Below, piece by piece: positions 45,790 to 54,534 of a stretch of DNA of 64,000 nt. The notes beneath the pieces are model-generated. The model had not been told where the DNA came from. It searched no databases and worked only from the letters and a program-made list of their open reading frames with translations. Made by a program: the position numbers and the translations under genes. Within the stretch, counting starts at the first letter, position 1; each line of letters starts with the position of its first letter. Source of the DNA: Chondrosia reniformis (Eukaryota; Porifera; Demospongiae; Chondrillida; Chondrillidae); assembly GCA_947172415.1 (NCBI GenBank), contig OX359190.1, positions 3,596,001 through 3,660,000 on the forward strand, written 5' to 3'.

Positions 45790-46305
45790 ATGAAACTTGA
45801 TGGTTTGATAATCCTTATGTCAGTAACATATGAGCCTCGCCATGGTCATTTTACAAATAATTTCTTGGGGTACCATTACATTCCAATGAAGCATTATTAT
45901 TTGGTTTTTGTATTGCACAAGAATATGTGCATCCATCAACGAAGGCAATGGTTCAGGTGTACATTGCATCACCTGCTACTCAGAAGGTGCTACTGTAAGG
46001 GCAACTTTTGCTTAGCTCGTGCATTAAGTATACTGCTATTGCTGGGTGGAGATGTTGAACTGAACCCAGGCCCACGTCAGAATGAGATAAATGATGAACT
46101 GAGCATGCCTACATCAGCTGTTAATCCCGTTATGGATCAAACTGGAATTGAAGGACAAGGATACATGGACAGTGAAGTAAAAAAATGTTCTACACTGGCC
46201 ATGCTGTCAGCATGTCAGAGAAAGAGGCTAGATGCTAAAACAGTTGAAGAGCACCTTATGATTATTAAAAATATCAGAGAATCAGAGACTGCGGCTGCAA
46301 TGTGA
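45790..46305 (+). CDS. Leader reading frame with 2A-type recoding motif (start of Helitron-2 polyprotein)
   Basis: Frame 1 from the ATG at 45790 gives a basic, Cys/His-containing leader (QRRQWFRCTLHHLLLRRCYC). A hydrophobic run (LARALSILLLLG) then leads to GDVELNPGP at 46048-46074. D-V-E-x-N-P-G-P with a preceding helical hydrophobic stretch is the consensus of 2A peptides. In these the ribosome skips the bond between Gly (46069-46071) and Pro (46072-46074). Downstream comes an acidic linker and RESETAAAM before a TGA. The homologous reading continues in frame 2 (TEEQHAARLATL), so this copy has a frameshift near 46290. The product upstream of 2A would be a separate ~94-residue peptide. Whether it works here is not known. 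Confidence 0.7.
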   Translation: MKLDGLIILMSVTYEPRHGHFTNNFLGYHYIPMKHYYLVFVLHKNMCIHQRRQWFRCTLHHLLLRRCYCKGNFCLARALSILLLLGGDVELNPGPRQNEINDELSMPTSAVNPVMDQTGIEGQGYMDSEVKKCSTLAMLSACQRKRLDAKTVEEHLMIIKNIRESETAAAM

Positions 46306-46308
46306 GAC

Positions 46309-46655
46309 TGAGGAGCAACATGCTGCAAGGCTTGCTACACTTACTGAAAATAACAGGAAACGGCTGTACTCAGAAGCCAAGTAAGATCGTGCTGCAAGAC
46401 TTGCCACCCTCTCTGAAAATCAGAGTAAGAGTTTGCAGTCAGAAAGCGATAAAGATCGTGCTGCAAGACTTGCCACCCTCTCTGAAAATCAGAGTAAGAG
46501 GTTGCAGTCAGAAAGCGATGAAGATCGTGCTGCAAGACTTGCCACCTTCTCTGAAAATCAGAGTTAGAGGTTGCAGTCAGAAAGCAATGAAAATCGTGCT
46601 GCAAGACTTGTCACCCACTCTGAAAATCAGAGGAAGAGGTTGCAGTCTGAATCGA
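46309..46655 (+). repeat. 69-bp coding repeats, about five copies
   Basis: Frame 2 reads DRAARLATLSENQSKRLQSE followed by SDK/SDE, repeated with a 23-codon period. It contains a TAA (near 46404) and a TAG (near 46564). Charged, helix-forming repeats like this are common in the N-terminal part of Helitron-type proteins. Confidence 0.85.
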
Positions 46656-47877
46656 CTAAAAAACGGGAGTCAAAACTGAGCAGCAGTAACAAATGGAAGA
46701 AAACAAGATTGATTAATGAATCTAAACAAAAAGTACTCAAGACTGGAGAGAGAAAAAGAGCAAGCAAGGTTAAGAATGCAAGCACATAGGAGGTAAAAAC
46801 GACTTCTGCAAGTAAAATGTAACTCAGAAGCAGAAATAACCAGTAGTGTGCCATGTATTAGCATTGTTTCAAATACCATGGTAAATGTGACCCGCATTAG
46901 TTCAATTTACGAATCCACTGATGGGTTGGAGAGGGCCACTTTGAAGGAAGTTCAAAGAGAAACAACCCAAAGTGATGATTCAGTCATGGATGATACTGCT
47001 AAGGAAAATCTTATCAGACAAAAGTCTGAAGAGGTGGACATGGAAGTGGGTGGAAGTGTAATTGAGTCTGGTGTTGATACTGCATCTGCTGTGCAGGTAC
47101 CAAGACTTGAGATTTCAATACCATCAAAACAAGGTTTGAAGTTCAAAAACAACTTACATAAGTTTGAAAAAGCAATTCTTAATTGGGGGCGACCCATAAG
47201 TGTTTTTCATATGAAAGGTTGTGCTATGAGCAGTTAGGTGCCCTGTACAGCTGCGATATGGCAAATGATCTACTTACTGTGGTGATGAATCAGTTAAAGA
47301 AAGTATAGAAAGTGTTTGGTTGTGTAACAAGTGCAAGAGTGCTATGGAAAGAAAGAAAATTCCAGCAGGATCACAGTTTAATAAAATGAAAGTACCAGAG
47401 GTCCCTTCAGTATTCATTGGACTAAACATATTAGAGCAGCGTTTGATTTAAAAGGCTGCTGTTTTCATGAAAATGGTCATTTTGCCAAAGGGTGGACAAA
47501 GGGCTGTTAGAGGCCAGGTAATCAACTTTCCCTCTAATGTTGACTGTGTCATTTCAGAGCTCCCTCGTTTACCCAGTGGTGATGATATTCTTTACATTCA
47601 GCAGCCAGACTCAATTGGAAGTAAACCATATGACTGTGTCCCTGATACAATTTACCATACCTCTTGATACTCCAAGCTCTGAAAAGGTTAAAGCAACATA
47701 ACCCTTTGTATGGTGACATCACAATCACTAAGATGTCAGAAGACATGTTTAACCATAAGGAAGAAAACGTCACTGACGGTGAAAATGTGAATGAAGACAT
47801 TTTAGAAATGGATGAAACAGGAATTGTTAGGTTGGATGCTCTCCAGCCTGTTATAGAGGCTGTTGACTTGATACAAG
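46571..47877 (+). pseudogene. Helitron-2 N-terminal region (basic stretch and DUF6570-like part)
   Basis: A Lys/Arg-rich segment (KRLQSESTKKRESKLSSSNK) ends at 46789. A second open block (46848-47237) reads STDGLERATLKEVQ and LHKFEKAILNWGRPISVFHM. After several shifts it continues as LPKGGQRAVRGQVINFPSNV and SELPRLPSGDDILYI (47475-47610), the pattern I associate with DUF6570 upstream of Helitron Rep domains. LQALKRLKQHNPLYGDI follows (47667-47717). An acidic linker leads to VDLIQ and the intron-like insert at 47878. Confidence 0.7.
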
Positions 47878-48621
47878 GTAGTATCAGGGGGTACGGTAGT
47901 ACTCCCTATGTAGGGATGACACGTTTTTTTTGTTTTCCCCATACATTGGTATAGGAGCGAAATCCTGAAATAGGCCGAAAATCGACAAAACAAGGTTATG
48001 TATAGGGAAATATAGATACTCTAAATAGACCTTAATAGCAAGCGAATATGACCCGATGGCGAAATAATAAACCTTAAAAATTCCCATTTTCGTCTTCTTC
48101 ATATTCTTCTTCTTCTTCGTCAGCCATAAATAAAACACTATATGAGCTTTTGGACTAATTGTTAAACGAAACTACTACAAATTTTCCAAGCTGTATTCAT
48201 TTGTAGAAGCAAGAGCGATAACGCTATTATTGAGCATGACGGGTTTCATGACCCTAGAGTCAAGGCCTCAATAAAGTCGCCATTTAATGACGTCATATTC
48301 AGTCGAAGATTGCGAAACCAAAATGGTTTTAATTATGCGAATCTAATTCCTAGCCCATGCTCCATAAAAAGTACAGAAACTAGAAATATAAAAAAAATTC
48401 TACAAAAATAGTGAAGATGTAGGGATGGCATAAAAAGTAGAGAAACAAGAAAGGGATGTTACACAGTCAAGCATTAGCTATACATGAATCCTACAAGCAT
48501 GGGTGTTGTATGATTCATGCACAGCTAATGCTTCACTGTGTAACATCCCTTTCTTTTTCTCTACTTTTTATGCCATCCCTACATCTTCACTATTTTTGTA
48601 AAACATTTTTAATATTTCTAG
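47878..48621 (+). other. 744-bp intron-like insert in the Helitron frame
   Basis: The coding text reads ATA CAA G, then GTAGTATCAG..., and resumes after ...ATTTCTAG with TA CCA AAA GAA. Removing 47878-48621 rejoins frame 0 in phase 1 as DLIQ-VPKEQQ. The insert is not coding (many stops). It contains a large hairpin and is AT-rich like sponge introns. It could be a genuine intron or a mobile insertion that supplies splice sites. Confidence 0.55.
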
Positions 48622-48624: not shown

Positions 48625-50539
48625 CAAAAGAACAGCAGATACATAAGTTGCAGAGAGTAACAACCACACCACTAAGTATATTTGAGAATCGAAATGACTT
48701 AGAAGTATTGGCTTTTCCGACCCTTTACCCCAATGGTGAAAATGGTTTTGGCACCATCAGAGAAGTCAAAGTTACACCTCTAGAATATTTTTCCAAACAA
48801 GAATGCTTAGTGCTGACTCAAGATGGGCATGTCATCCTGCTTATATCTATTGGGCCTGTAACATTGTAGAAGCCCTGAAGTTGCAGAGCAGCATTTCCAT
48901 TGCTATGAGGATACGATCATTCAGAATAGGCCACTGTGAGAAGTCTAACTAGGAAACCAACGAGAAGGAGCTACTCACAGCTGTTTTGCTGCTAGGATGC
49001 CTGGAAAATAACCCTCGCTTGCGTGAAAATTGTTATAGCTTCATAAGAGATATTCGTGGCACACAGGCTTATTGGAACTCAGTAAAGATCCAGGTATTTG
49101 CCATGTTTCGCACCCTAGCTCCTCCCACAATTTTTGTCACACTGAGTGCTGACGATAATAATTGGGTAGACTTGATGATAGTCCTAAGCAGGAGTATTGG
49201 TCAGAATCTGTCAGAGGAACAGGAAGCTAATTTATCATCCAATGAGAGGAGAGAACTGATGGGGACAAATGCAGTGGTTACAGCTAGGCATTTTGCACAT
49301 CGCTTTCAGTGCTTCCGCAGGGTAGTGAATAAAGGATTTGGGCAACCTATTGGTGAGGTAGTTGACTACTTTTGGAGAATTGAATTCCAGTTGAGGGGAT
49401 CTCCACATGTCCATTCCATGTGGTAAATAAGGGATGCTCCAAACGTAGATACTACAGCTGGAAGGCAGATTGCTGCACAGAACATTGATAGGTACATTTC
49501 TGTGAATATTCCAACACAAGGTCGCAAAGATGAAGAACTTCGTTCTTTGGTGTTGAGAGTGCAGCAGCACCATCATACATCAACTTGCATGAAAGCAACA
49601 CAAAGGGGGAAAAATGTGGGAGACTGCTGATTTGATTTTCCTTAACCTCTGTCAGAAGATACATGGCTGAAAAGCCATGATGATCCTGGAAACAAGTCCA
49701 GGTTCTATGTCTTCAAGAGATCAGCAGGGGAAGAAAACTGCAATCCATCATACAATACACACCTTCTGAAGGCATGGAAAGCTAATATGGATATACAATT
49801 GATTGGATCAGCATATGGCACAGCTGCATATGTGTGTTCCCACATGTATAAATCAGAAAGTGAAGAGGTCAGGAAAGCTATCCGAGATGCATGGGAAAGC
49901 TTGCCTCCTCAGGCTGCAACAAGAAAGCGTCTGTCAAAGATTGGCAACACAATCCTGACCCATGGTGAGTTGAGTGCCCAGGAGGCAGCATATCGATTGT
50001 GTCATTTGCCATTGAAGGAAAATTCAAGAAAAGTTGTATTCCTTAACACTGCCAGACCAGAGAAGAGAACGAGGTTACTCAAGAGTAGGTCTAAATTGCT
50101 TGAATTGGAGGATGATTCCTCTGATATTTTTGCCCTTGGTATCTTTGATAGATATGCCTCTAGACCAGACACACCAGAATTTGCAAGTAAGACCTTGGCT
50201 CACTTTGCAGTGTGGTGTGATGTAGATACACAAGGTGTTGAGAAAGCTAGAAATGGACCAGCACAGCCTCGTAACCAGTTGCAGAATAACATGGGATGGG
50301 TTCATCTGAGAAGGAAGCAAGCCTGTCTGCGAATTCCAGTACAGACAGTAGAAAGTCATGGTGATGACTATTACTACAGTTTGCTGTTACTATACATCCC
50401 TTGGATGGAGGAACCTGAGTATCTGTTGAAAGGTCACTCTTCTGCAATGGAGGCTTTCATTGTACGAGAAGGAGAAATGGTTCTTTTTAATGCTCACAAT
50501 CATGCCTTTGCAGATGAAGTGCAGAAGGCTGTTGTGTAA
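48622..50539 (+). pseudogene. Helitron-2 Rep (HUH nuclease) region
   Basis: VPKEQQIHKLQ, TPLSIFENRNDLEVLAFPTL, YPNGENGFGT and VTPLEYF start the domain. After a frame change it reads MLSADSRWACHPAYIYWACN, then RENCYSFIRDIRGTQAYWNS and FRTLAPPTIFVTLSADDNNW. GSPHVHSMW follows, with the two-His HUH motif HVH at 49406-49414, just before a TAA at 49424-49426. After the stop the same kind of sequence continues (IRDAPNVDT, QLIGSAYGTAAYVCSHMYKS, AAYRLCHLPLKENSRKVVFL) to 50539. The Rep nicks DNA for rolling-circle transposition. Shifts and stops make this copy inactive. Confidence 0.85.
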
Positions 50540-52604
50540 TTACAAGCCTTGGAAAGATGATGCCTACCAAGATGTCGTTGCCCCAATGGCACCGCAGGCT
50601 CTAAGGGAGGATGCTGCACAACCCTCTATTGAGGCTGAAGGAGGGTTGATGAACCCAGAGCATTTCATGGACCCAGCATGCCTTGATGATGACAATTTGA
50701 GCGCAACAGATGAAGAACATATGCTCCTAAATGACAATGATGACGACATTGGTGCGATGAGTAGACACTCCCTTACTGATAGGGAATTTAGGCAACTCAT
50801 TGCAAGTTTGAATACAAAGCAGCGTAATCCATTTGACATTGTTGTGCATTACACTCGTGAGTTGCACAAACACAGAATGAAAATACGCCACGAACCTCCA
50901 GAACCATTTCATCTGTTTGTGACAGGTGAAGCAGGCACTGGGAAATCACATGTAATTAGGGCTATTAAAGAGCATATGTAACGTTCTATGTCAGGGAGTC
51001 AAGAGATGCATGCCTGTATGTTTATGGCACCGACTGGAGTTGCAACCTTCAACATTGGAGGCCTCACAATCCATAGAGCATTGCGGCTACAGGTGGAGCA
51101 TGGCAGAACTGCTCATCAATTGCAGCTGAATGCCCTAGCCCTGCATGACTTGAGGAATCTGTGGCAAGGAGTGCACACCATCATCATTGATGAATTCAGT
51201 ATGGTGTCTTGCCAGATACTGAAGTCAGTTCACAGTTGACTGTGTGAGATTTATAGCAATGATGACATTTGTGGTGGTTTGAATGTCATTGCAGTGGGCG
51301 ACTTGTACCAGCTATCTCCAGTGAACGGTAGTTATATATTCAGTCAGAAACCTGGACGCTCATTGGGGCGACTGGCTTCACACTTTTGGAGGGATTTCTT
51401 CAAGGTGATTGAACTGGAAGTGAACATGCATCAGCAGAATGATGCTTCATTCTCAGAGATACTTATTCGGATCAGGACGGGCGTGCACATCAATGAAGAT
51501 GTGAATGTTCTGCAAAAACGTTTGGTTTCAGGTGGGACTGTGGATTTGCTGGCTTCCCCATTTGATACAGCTCTGACATTGTATCCCCGTACAGTAGATG
51601 TTGATGGGTACAATGAAATGCAGATAAAAAGTCTGGCAAAGAGCAGTCAAATCTATAGTATTGATGCAGAGTATGCAATATTAGAGAGTCGAGGGCAAAT
51701 TTATGCCAATATTAAATACAATGAGGTTCCCGAACGTCTCATTCCACAAGATGATAAAGACTGTGCTGCACTGCCCCGTATACTGAAGGTAGCAGTTGGT
51801 GCTAAAGTAATGTTGCGACGAAGCATTAACTGTGGTGATGGTTTGGTGAATGGTGCCAGAGGAACAATTGTAGGCTTCAAGTGGTCGAGAAATCCAAGGC
51901 ACTAGAGTATACCTGGTGCATTACCCACAGAGGTATATGTGACATTCTTAGATCCCAATGTGGGGAAATTGTCAAAGGTACCAGTTGTCTCGGAGCAACA
52001 GGATGTTGTACCAATTCAGCCTATTTATGCACATTTCTACAGAAAGGAAGGTACACTCCTGCAGAGAACACAGATTCCCTTGATTCTGTGCTGGGCAGCA
52101 ACTGTTCACAAGGTGCAAGGATTGTCTCTAGATGCAGCAGTCATGGATTTAGGGAAGGATGTACTTGAACCTGGAATGGCCTATGTAGCTCTAAGTCGTT
52201 TGCGCACACTGAATGGATTGGCCCTGCTGAACTTTCAGCCAAAGAAGATTACAGCAAACAAGAGAGTCCATGAGGAAATCGCAAGGCTACGACAAGAATC
52301 TGTTTATAGTGGTGAGGAATCAGAAAAAGAGGAACTAATATCAGGTCATTTTGTCCAGAATTGTAGTCAAAATGAGGAGATATCAAGGGCTGCATTAAAG
52401 GGTAGTAGTGCTTTGGTGCACAATGACAAGTGCATGTCACAATCTTATGTTAAGATTGGGGATAAAGGGACACATGGCAAGGAGCATACATCGGAACCAT
52501 TGGTGGTTGGCAGTCATTCTGTGCATTCAGACATCCCAATTACTTATGTTGACACACTGGTGTTGTCACTGAAAACAACAATTGAAGCTATATATAGTGA
52601 CTAG
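50460..52604 (+). pseudogene. Helitron-2 PIF1-type helicase, three in-frame stops
   Basis: One frame (frame 3) runs through the whole domain. Walker A is FVTGEAGTGKSHVI (about 50918-50960). Then come MAPTGVATFNIGGLTIHRAL, Walker B HTIIIDEFSMVS (about 51174-51210), VIAVGDLYQLSPV, and AVGAKVMLRRSINCGDGLVN. The final motifs are CWAATVHKVQGLSLDAAVMD and GMAYVALSRLRTLNGLAL. Stops at TAA 50979-50981, TGA 51237-51239 and TAG 51903-51905 interrupt an otherwise collinear sequence. All three kinds of stop occur, so a changed genetic code is unlikely. The helicase would unwind donor DNA during transposition. Confidence 0.9.
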
Positions 52605-53376
52605 TAACACTTTGAATAGTGAGTCAATAGTAAGGTGGTCAAAGTGTCATCACAGTCAATTACAGACTATTCTTAGATTGGTGAATCGTCCTTCCCGGGC
52701 AACTTCCAGTAATATGCATCATCAAGTGGATGTTGCAGTAAAAGACAAAGTCTTTCCAGCCTTTACGTCACAGTACATGCCAGCTTACACTAAAAGAGGT
52801 GGAAATTGTATGCTATCTTTGGCCCTTTGTGGAACAGAGCACTACATGTGCCACTTGAGATTGGTGACCGCTTATAGCCTCATTGTGCATCAACAACATA
52901 TGCTAGAAGTCATTCAGCCAACTGCTAGGATACTTCTACCATTGCAGAAACGAGATGCTGCTTCAGTTGCTAAAGCAGCAGAAGTACAGTGGCTGGAATC
53001 ACTTCGCAGTTCTATCTCTGACAAGTCTTGGGGAACCCAATTTCATCTGCATGCACTGGCAATGACTTTGGAGAGGTCCATTTGGTTGTATGCTGTGATG
53101 CACAGCAGATGCCTTCAAGATGGGGAAAAGCAGCTCCAACCAATTAAGCAGGATGTAACACCTACTGAATTGCAAGATCTGTTTGAAATGGGAGACAAGA
53201 GGTTGAATAACAGTATTTGCTATCTCTCTGATGCAGTCCCAGAAGAGCATGTTCCATTTATAGGATTTCTGGATTCCTCTCATTTCACTGCCATTCTTCC
53301 AATGGTGTCTGCAAAATGTTCCTTAGGGTTTGCTCCATTTACCACCTTCATGTCACAGTGGGCTCCTGAAGAGTGA
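52582..53376 (+). pseudogene. OTU-like cysteine protease region of Helitron-2
   Basis: Frame 1 is open for 264 codons and partly overlaps the helicase end. GGNCMLSLALCGTEHYMCHL, then RLVTAYSLIV, resembles the OTU pattern DGNCLFxALSxxxxGTE, with the catalytic Cys kept but the preceding Asp replaced by Gly. A C-terminal SSHFTAILPMV fits the catalytic His strand. OTU domains occur in several Helitron proteins. The shift from the helicase frame suggests decay, although the frame itself is intact in both copies. Confidence 0.6.
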
Positions 53377-54327: not shown

Positions 54328-54534
54328 TAGCATGAACATGATTGGTAATAACAAGGACACAGCGACCGAAGGGAGTAAAGTAGTTCGAGTTAGTTAGGGG
54401 CCGGTAGTCCCACGAGTTTTTTCAACTCGAACTATTTGTTTTATTTGTATATACTGTAAATTTTGGGCTACTTCCCGTCAAGGAGATAAAGCCTTTTGGA
54501 TGATGATGATGATGATGATAATAATGATTGCACC
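54328..54534 (+). mobile_element. 207-bp insertion with (GAT)n tail, SINE or non-LTR fragment
   Basis: Copy 2 reads ataccag-ctgctgtttg with nothing between, while copy 1 has 207 bp here. The insert ends in ggagataaagccttttggat followed by gatgatgatgatgatgat. Such GAT-rich tails are typical of CR1/RTE-type retrotransposons and of SINEs using their machinery. Confidence 0.6.

Follow-up and report, generated by a model that had tools for sequence, protein, structure and literature searches.

We identified, in the genome of the sponge Chondrosia reniformis, an OTU-bearing Helitron without an AP endonuclease, in which one long reading frame opens with a basic leader ending in a 2A (StopGo) sequence and very probably gives the leader and the Rep-helicase as separate products by predicted ribosome skipping. 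The finding is broader than first stated: a conserved 2A heads several Helitron families in this one sponge genome, the only one searched (G000; 117,379,552 bases in 15 contigs).

The motif came to attention in the window, by which we mean the whole stretch of 64,000 nucleotides that was analysed. A frame on the plus strand (45790–46302, with its stop codon at 46303–46305) encodes ALSILLLLGGDVELNPGP in the window translation. An earlier sequence-only reading had reported a full match to the 2A consensus in this first frame, and the match is there; the would-be skip point lies between Gly (46069–46071) and Pro (46072–46074). A degenerate DNA pattern for GDVE[LF]NPGP gave 44 matches in the genome and none when reversed, and D[VIM]ExNPGP, which takes in the StopGo core D(V/I)ExNPGP, gave 126 matches against 1 for the reversed pattern. 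A chance motif is ruled out by these counts together with the shifted controls given below.

The window copy is a decayed member of what we call family A, lying in pieces in several frames (see table). The earlier reading had joined the motif to the rest of the element through one frameshift; there is more than one, and the coding pieces fall in several frames with stops. Its list of Helitron domains held in part, with Helitron_like_N and Pif1_2B clear on the plus strand and DUF6570 and OTU weak in the window; all of these, and STPR repeats, are found in an intact relative, L012. Most of the 737-bp insertion has a relative at 77% in L010. In the STPR region of the window and of the family A copies, repeated off-diagonal matches occur at 69-bp steps, which suggests that repeat number differs between copies; a match to FMBP-1 (PDB 5d23) further suggests that this is a DNA-binding part of variable length. 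Elsewhere in the window, a second decayed Helitron Rep fragment matches PF14214 (4725–4982, plus strand).

Table. Features of the family A copy, in window positions.
Feature	Positions	Strand	Remarks
Leader, 94 codons, many basic residues, ends NPG	45790..46071	+	choice of start Met inferred; aligned with 11 other leaders
2A/StopGo motif SILLLLGGDVELNPGP	46027..46074	+	skip predicted at 46071/46072
Predicted downstream product, Pro first, to the frame's first stop in the window copy	46072..46305	+	
STPR-type repeats DRAARLATLSENQSKRLQSESDE	46269..46789	+	broken by stops and frame changes in the window copy
DUF6570 region	47340..47730	+	limits approximate, mapped from L011 by arithmetic
Insertion	47885..48621	+	737 bp; none of the 12 other family A copies that cover this point has it
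HUH Rep (Helitron_like_N), damaged in the window copy	48791..49420	+	profile match
PIF1-type helicase	50900..52290	+	stops inside; limits approximate
OTU-like region	52573..53376	+	frame differs from helicase frame; GDGNC of L012 is RGGNC here
3' end region, inverted repeat AAGTAGTTCGAGTT ... AACTCGAACTATTT	54378..54441	+	many family A matches stop at 54441–54444

For relatives, we retrieved the surrounding 10 kb for 23 of the 43 GDVE[LF]NPGP places outside the window, along with one copy each of two further families taken from the list of Rep matches. In three natural copies from three families, a single frame runs unbroken from the leader over the 2A to the Rep-PIF1 helicase: L011 in family A (2312 codons, 2050 of them from the motif on), L012 in family B (2523 codons, 2260 from the motif on) and L032 in family D (2510 codons, with the motif at residue 291). 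The check proposed at the outset, to see whether the motif precedes Rep within a shared open frame, thus came out positive, and the suspicion that intact relatives would lack the motif failed on the same copies, in which the 2A lies in frame between two coding segments. The L012 protein (P0002) contains STPR repeats, DUF6570, Helitron_like_N, PIF1 and OTU; the L011 protein (P0001) has the same domains except OTU, its frame ending before that part; and L032 has DUF6570, Rep, PIF1 and OTU with no STPR match. In the order L011, L012 and L032, the E-values were 2.1e-30, 5.8e-31 and 6.1e-26 for PF14214 and 3.3e-26, 5.5e-27 and 4.6e-21 for PIF1; the STPR profile PF21107 scored 4e-33 in L011 and 2.4e-25 in L012, and OTU (PF02338) 1.4e-6 in L012 and 1.2e-11 in L032.

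Most other copies are broken. At 21 of the 23 places, all found with the family A/B-type pattern, the frame ends within 418 codons of the motif, and one of these 21 (L017) lacks Rep and, as far as seen, is no Helitron. We read 10 of the 27 long-frame Rep loci that have the motif; three are open from 2A to Rep (L011, L012 and L032) and seven are broken in between (L016, L021, L022, L026, L027, L030 and L033). The last of these, the only family C copy read, is open across leader and 2A; a TAG follows in frame 72 codons past the 2A Pro, and after it comes a 1652-codon stretch with Rep and helicase. In family B, a frame change before the Rep part falls at the same place in L026, L027, L030 and L034, and similarly in L025. 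It lies at ...LLQRKK / KKIPAVSQFNKM..., where L012 is open. The simplest explanation is a lesion passed on by descent; it may also be a site of frameshifting. Because so many frames end early, seven of ten are broken and five family B copies have this frame change, the claim of a single frame rests on three copies. The copies are also grouped in places. Three family C Helitrons, each with an exact 2A and a 1652-aa Rep frame, lie head to tail (G000 C5:4587408, 4599373 and 4611338) at a spacing of exactly 11,965 bp, and nearby family A pairs in opposite orientation, at G000 C2:5579129(+)/5602019(-) and C3:2880663(+)/2902296(-), suggest inverted duplication.

The association with Rep holds genome-wide. 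A PF14214 search (150 of 153 candidates scored) gave 133 matches, which we merged into 119 Rep loci. At 69 of these, an exact D[VIM]ExNPGP precedes Rep by no more than 6 kb on its own strand, at distances of 528 to 3364 bases, and none of the 119 has one downstream of Rep or on the opposite strand. When the motif matches were moved by 20–500 kb in 500 rounds, the mean was 1.5 loci and the maximum 6. The attached motifs were DVELNPGP (40), DVEVNPGP (14) and DIESNPGP (9), with DVEQ, DVES, DIEL, DMEQ, DIEQ and DMES versions once each; from this variety it follows that the consensus is kept across families that differ in x residue and in codons. Among Rep loci in frames of at least 700 aa, four of which have a stop inside the Rep match, 27 of 29 have the exact motif upstream and the remaining two are one base away (C6:4225690, reading NLGP, and C11:3514037, where a Leu codon comes after NPG). 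In the part of the C6 copy that was read, the motif change is joined by a frame break between 2A and Rep.

If remnants that differ from the A/B or D motif by at most three mismatches are counted too, 78 of the 119 loci have a 2A or its remnant and 41 have none. The latter include a fifth Helitron family that we call E, with at least 64% Rep identity to L039, where 0 of 12 loci have a 2A; in about 3.6 kb read upstream of two family E Reps we saw no 2A. Excluding family E, 78 of 107 Rep loci have a 2A or remnant, and many of the other motif-less loci are short fragments.

We then compared codons between L011 and L012 with our own Nei-Gojobori script. The 17-codon 2A core differs by 7 synonymous and 2 nonsynonymous changes (dN 0.057, dS 0.79, omega 0.07), and omega for the catalytic domains is 0.078 in Rep and 0.052 in PIF1. 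For the codons after the 2A it is 0.85, and for the leader it is 0.26 with dS saturated. Identical residues number 15 of 17 in the core, 22 of 64 in the leader and 18 of 45 after the 2A (Fisher p 9e-5). As estimated from these codon differences, the 2A core is under strong protein-level constraint and evolves like the catalytic domains, and its flanks do not. Across 12 leaders from families A to D, the consensus G, D, E, N, P, G and P and four L residues are invariant. In Rep-helicase, families A and D are 28% identical; between the minisatellite and the 2A they are 42% identical, over a stretch that is partly repeat. StopGo is probably an old and integral expression strategy of this rolling-circle lineage, the leader-2A having been kept while the Rep-helicase diverged to that degree, so that leader and transposase would come from one frame.

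The region further upstream behaves differently between families A and B. A common 5' region with a minisatellite has about 85–91% DNA identity (about 85–87% between L011, oriented, 560–1614 and L012 430–1602), and the leader and post-2A codons of the two families are far more divergent than this region. Its omega is 0.87–0.98 (0.98 in the open stretch of the minisatellite), and the minisatellite and 5' region are therefore probably not coding. The similar 5' region beside a divergent leader and post-2A part suggests that 5' ends were exchanged between families A and B. In the window, between 42001 and 46100, only the leader-adjacent part of the region was found again.

By its predicted enzyme, the element is a rolling-circle DNA transposon of the Helitron superfamily. 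An HUH Rep with two tyrosines and a PIF1-type helicase occur in one protein, the HxH and the two Tyr four residues apart are invariant in four families, and Helraiser (7lcc) is matched at 9.3e-12, through the helicase. The canonical Helitron subgroup has TC at its 5' end and CTRR at its 3' end. Of seven family A copies inspected, five have AACTCGAACTACTTGTTT, part of the inverted repeat, at the putative 3' end where copies stop matching, and CTRR was seen at the putative 3' end of none; the 5' end of the element was looked for and not found. Helentrons, proto-Helentrons and Helitron2 are similar in their Rep-helicase, in OTU (Helentrons) and in an inverted repeat near the 3' end, according to the accessible portion of one account (PMC4067079). 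Helentrons have an AP endonuclease, whereas we found no match to one fused to the C-terminus in the L011, L012 or L032 proteins, and the same portion of that account mentions no 2A for the Helentron group. Judged on its protein domains, the sponge element is OTU-bearing like Helentrons and, by the endonuclease, is not a Helentron.

How the 2A would act follows from its surroundings. According to a cryo-EM and survey paper (PMC12846837), StopGo requires (D/G/C/N)(V/I)ExNPGP together with a suitable sequence ahead of it; in one class of such contexts, this sequence is rich in L and has (A/S/C)G just before the D. The contexts of family B (LLLLAG) and family C (LLLLSG) fit this class, and those of A and D (LLLLGG) depart from it by a single residue. 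The basic leader noted in the sequence-only reading is real: in 15 copies its pI is 9.0–10.1, and its length from the chosen Met is 65–94 residues (94 in A, 90 in B and 65 in D). AlphaFold models of 12 natural leaders had a mean pLDDT of 45.6, with helices, including one at 73–90, at low confidence, and for this reason we claim no fold for the leader. In the proposed mechanism, the ribosome would stall at NPG, release the basic leader and resume at Pro, so that one mRNA would give a separate leader and a Pro-initial protein of roughly 2050–2260 residues. The latter would contain Rep and helicase, joined by STPR repeats in families A and B and by OTU in B and D. More tentatively, the leader may be a small protein that binds nucleic acid or has a regulatory role, and if skipping is incomplete, a lesser share of the product might stay fused, with a hydrophobic run that could alter where it goes or how active it is.

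We weighed four alternatives to this mechanism. The sequence-only reading had itself allowed that the 2A frame might belong to a separate, APE-type non-LTR retrotransposon abutting the Helitron, and such elements are present in the genome. Not all 2A sites are attached to Helitrons: 57 of the 126 D[VIM]ExNPGP matches are not followed by a Rep match within 6 kb. We fetched 4 of the 15 DVE[A/T]NPGP places (L035, L036, L037 and L038). In L035 (1153–2868), a 2A with an L-rich context ending in AGD heads a frame with PHD and endonuclease domains, which fits the known class of non-LTR elements with a 2A, as far as its domains tell. L038 is like L035 from its start into the PHD part and L037 only up to the 2A; L036 has a different leader and, by eye only, an endonuclease-like start. 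The Helitron 2A is another matter, as one open frame runs from 2A through Rep to helicase in three families, the same arrangement recurs at the 69 Rep loci, and the 2A frames of L011, L012 and L032 have no match to a reverse transcriptase or AP endonuclease. An abutting element is ruled out by the three open frames, and its probability is close to nil. As separate observations, G[VIM]ExNPGP has 9 matches in the genome and none reversed, with GIERNPGP, which has Gly at the first core position, at 8 places (for example G000 C1:3715268), and a search for relatives in viral contigs matched a pattern in 81 stretches, of which none was confirmed.

The other alternatives leave the 2A in the Helitron and differ in what it does there. 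We consider it unlikely that the leader-2A is mainly a targeting switch, in which unskipped protein would go to membranes via the L-rich run and skipped protein to the cytoplasm or nucleus; such a switch would add to skipping and not replace it. L-rich runs stand right before the motif, with a best 19-residue hydropathy of 1.2–2.1 in four families, and a precedent is given for S. purpuratus NLRs in the portion of PMC4981915 available, but the run is internal, with about 45–75 residues, many of them basic, ahead of it, and in family D the value is just 1.19. That the peptide owes its conservation to some other role, amphipathic or hydrophobic, with skipping absent or incidental, seems to us improbable; the GG before the D in families A and D is unlike the reported StopGo class, but the invariant columns are those of StopGo plus the L run, and the residues at x (L, V, S, Q) differ within what the known consensus permits. 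It is very improbable that the 2A codons go untranslated in the Rep mRNA, through a later Met start or a splice or frame change in between. In-frame Met codons do follow the motif in family A, and the breaks between 2A and Rep in seven of the ten long-frame loci read, alike in several family B copies, would suit this idea; against it stand the constraint on the core, with its excess of synonymous over nonsynonymous differences, and the copies L011, L012 and L032, whose frames run on without a break from 2A across Rep. Skipping between leader and Rep-helicase is the reading we prefer.

Outside viruses, natural 2A sequences are listed for non-LTR retrotransposons and NOD-like receptors in the part of one source available (PMC11512398), and another calls StopGo rare in cellular genes, in the part available (PMC12846837). 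Viral 2A as described in the latter has the same core D(V/I)ExNPGP and an LLLLSG-type upstream context; it serves RNA-virus polyproteins, whereas the sponge 2A lies in a DNA transposon of an animal genome. The sea-urchin NLRs resemble the sponge element in that the N-terminal region of a protein encoded by an animal genome has a 2A-like peptide and a hydrophobic run (Roulston et al., 2016, PMC4981915, in the part available). There, a 26-residue N-terminal sequence heads an immune receptor, whereas in the sponge 65–94 residues, mostly ahead of the run, precede the skip site of a transposase, and the 2A peptide is not itself the N-terminus.

In the non-LTR case, the 2A likewise lies in the frame of a mobile element, as in the sponge Helitron; those elements encode an endonuclease and, by class, a reverse transcriptase, whereas here an HUH Rep-PIF1 helicase of a DNA transposon lies downstream. 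A 2A in APE-type non-LTR retrotransposons was reportedly described by Odon et al. in 2013, as cited in PMC12846837 and PMC11512398. In the literature we searched, no 2A was described in a Helitron; a 2025 survey by Rao et al. (Cell Rep 44:115822), said to be a systematic one of 2A sequences, lay outside that scope and may already list such proteins.

With the sponge element, a recoding peptide known from elsewhere turns up in a class of mobile element that is new for it, the recoding being predicted. Natural material for following it up is at hand, with L012 and L032 as positives and family E and the NLGP copy as negatives. If the prediction is true, StopGo would extend to another class of mobile elements, the DNA transposons, and two unrelated types of element in one animal genome would have a 2A. 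To our knowledge, the expression of Helitrons is little understood; they would gain a concrete step of translation and a second protein.
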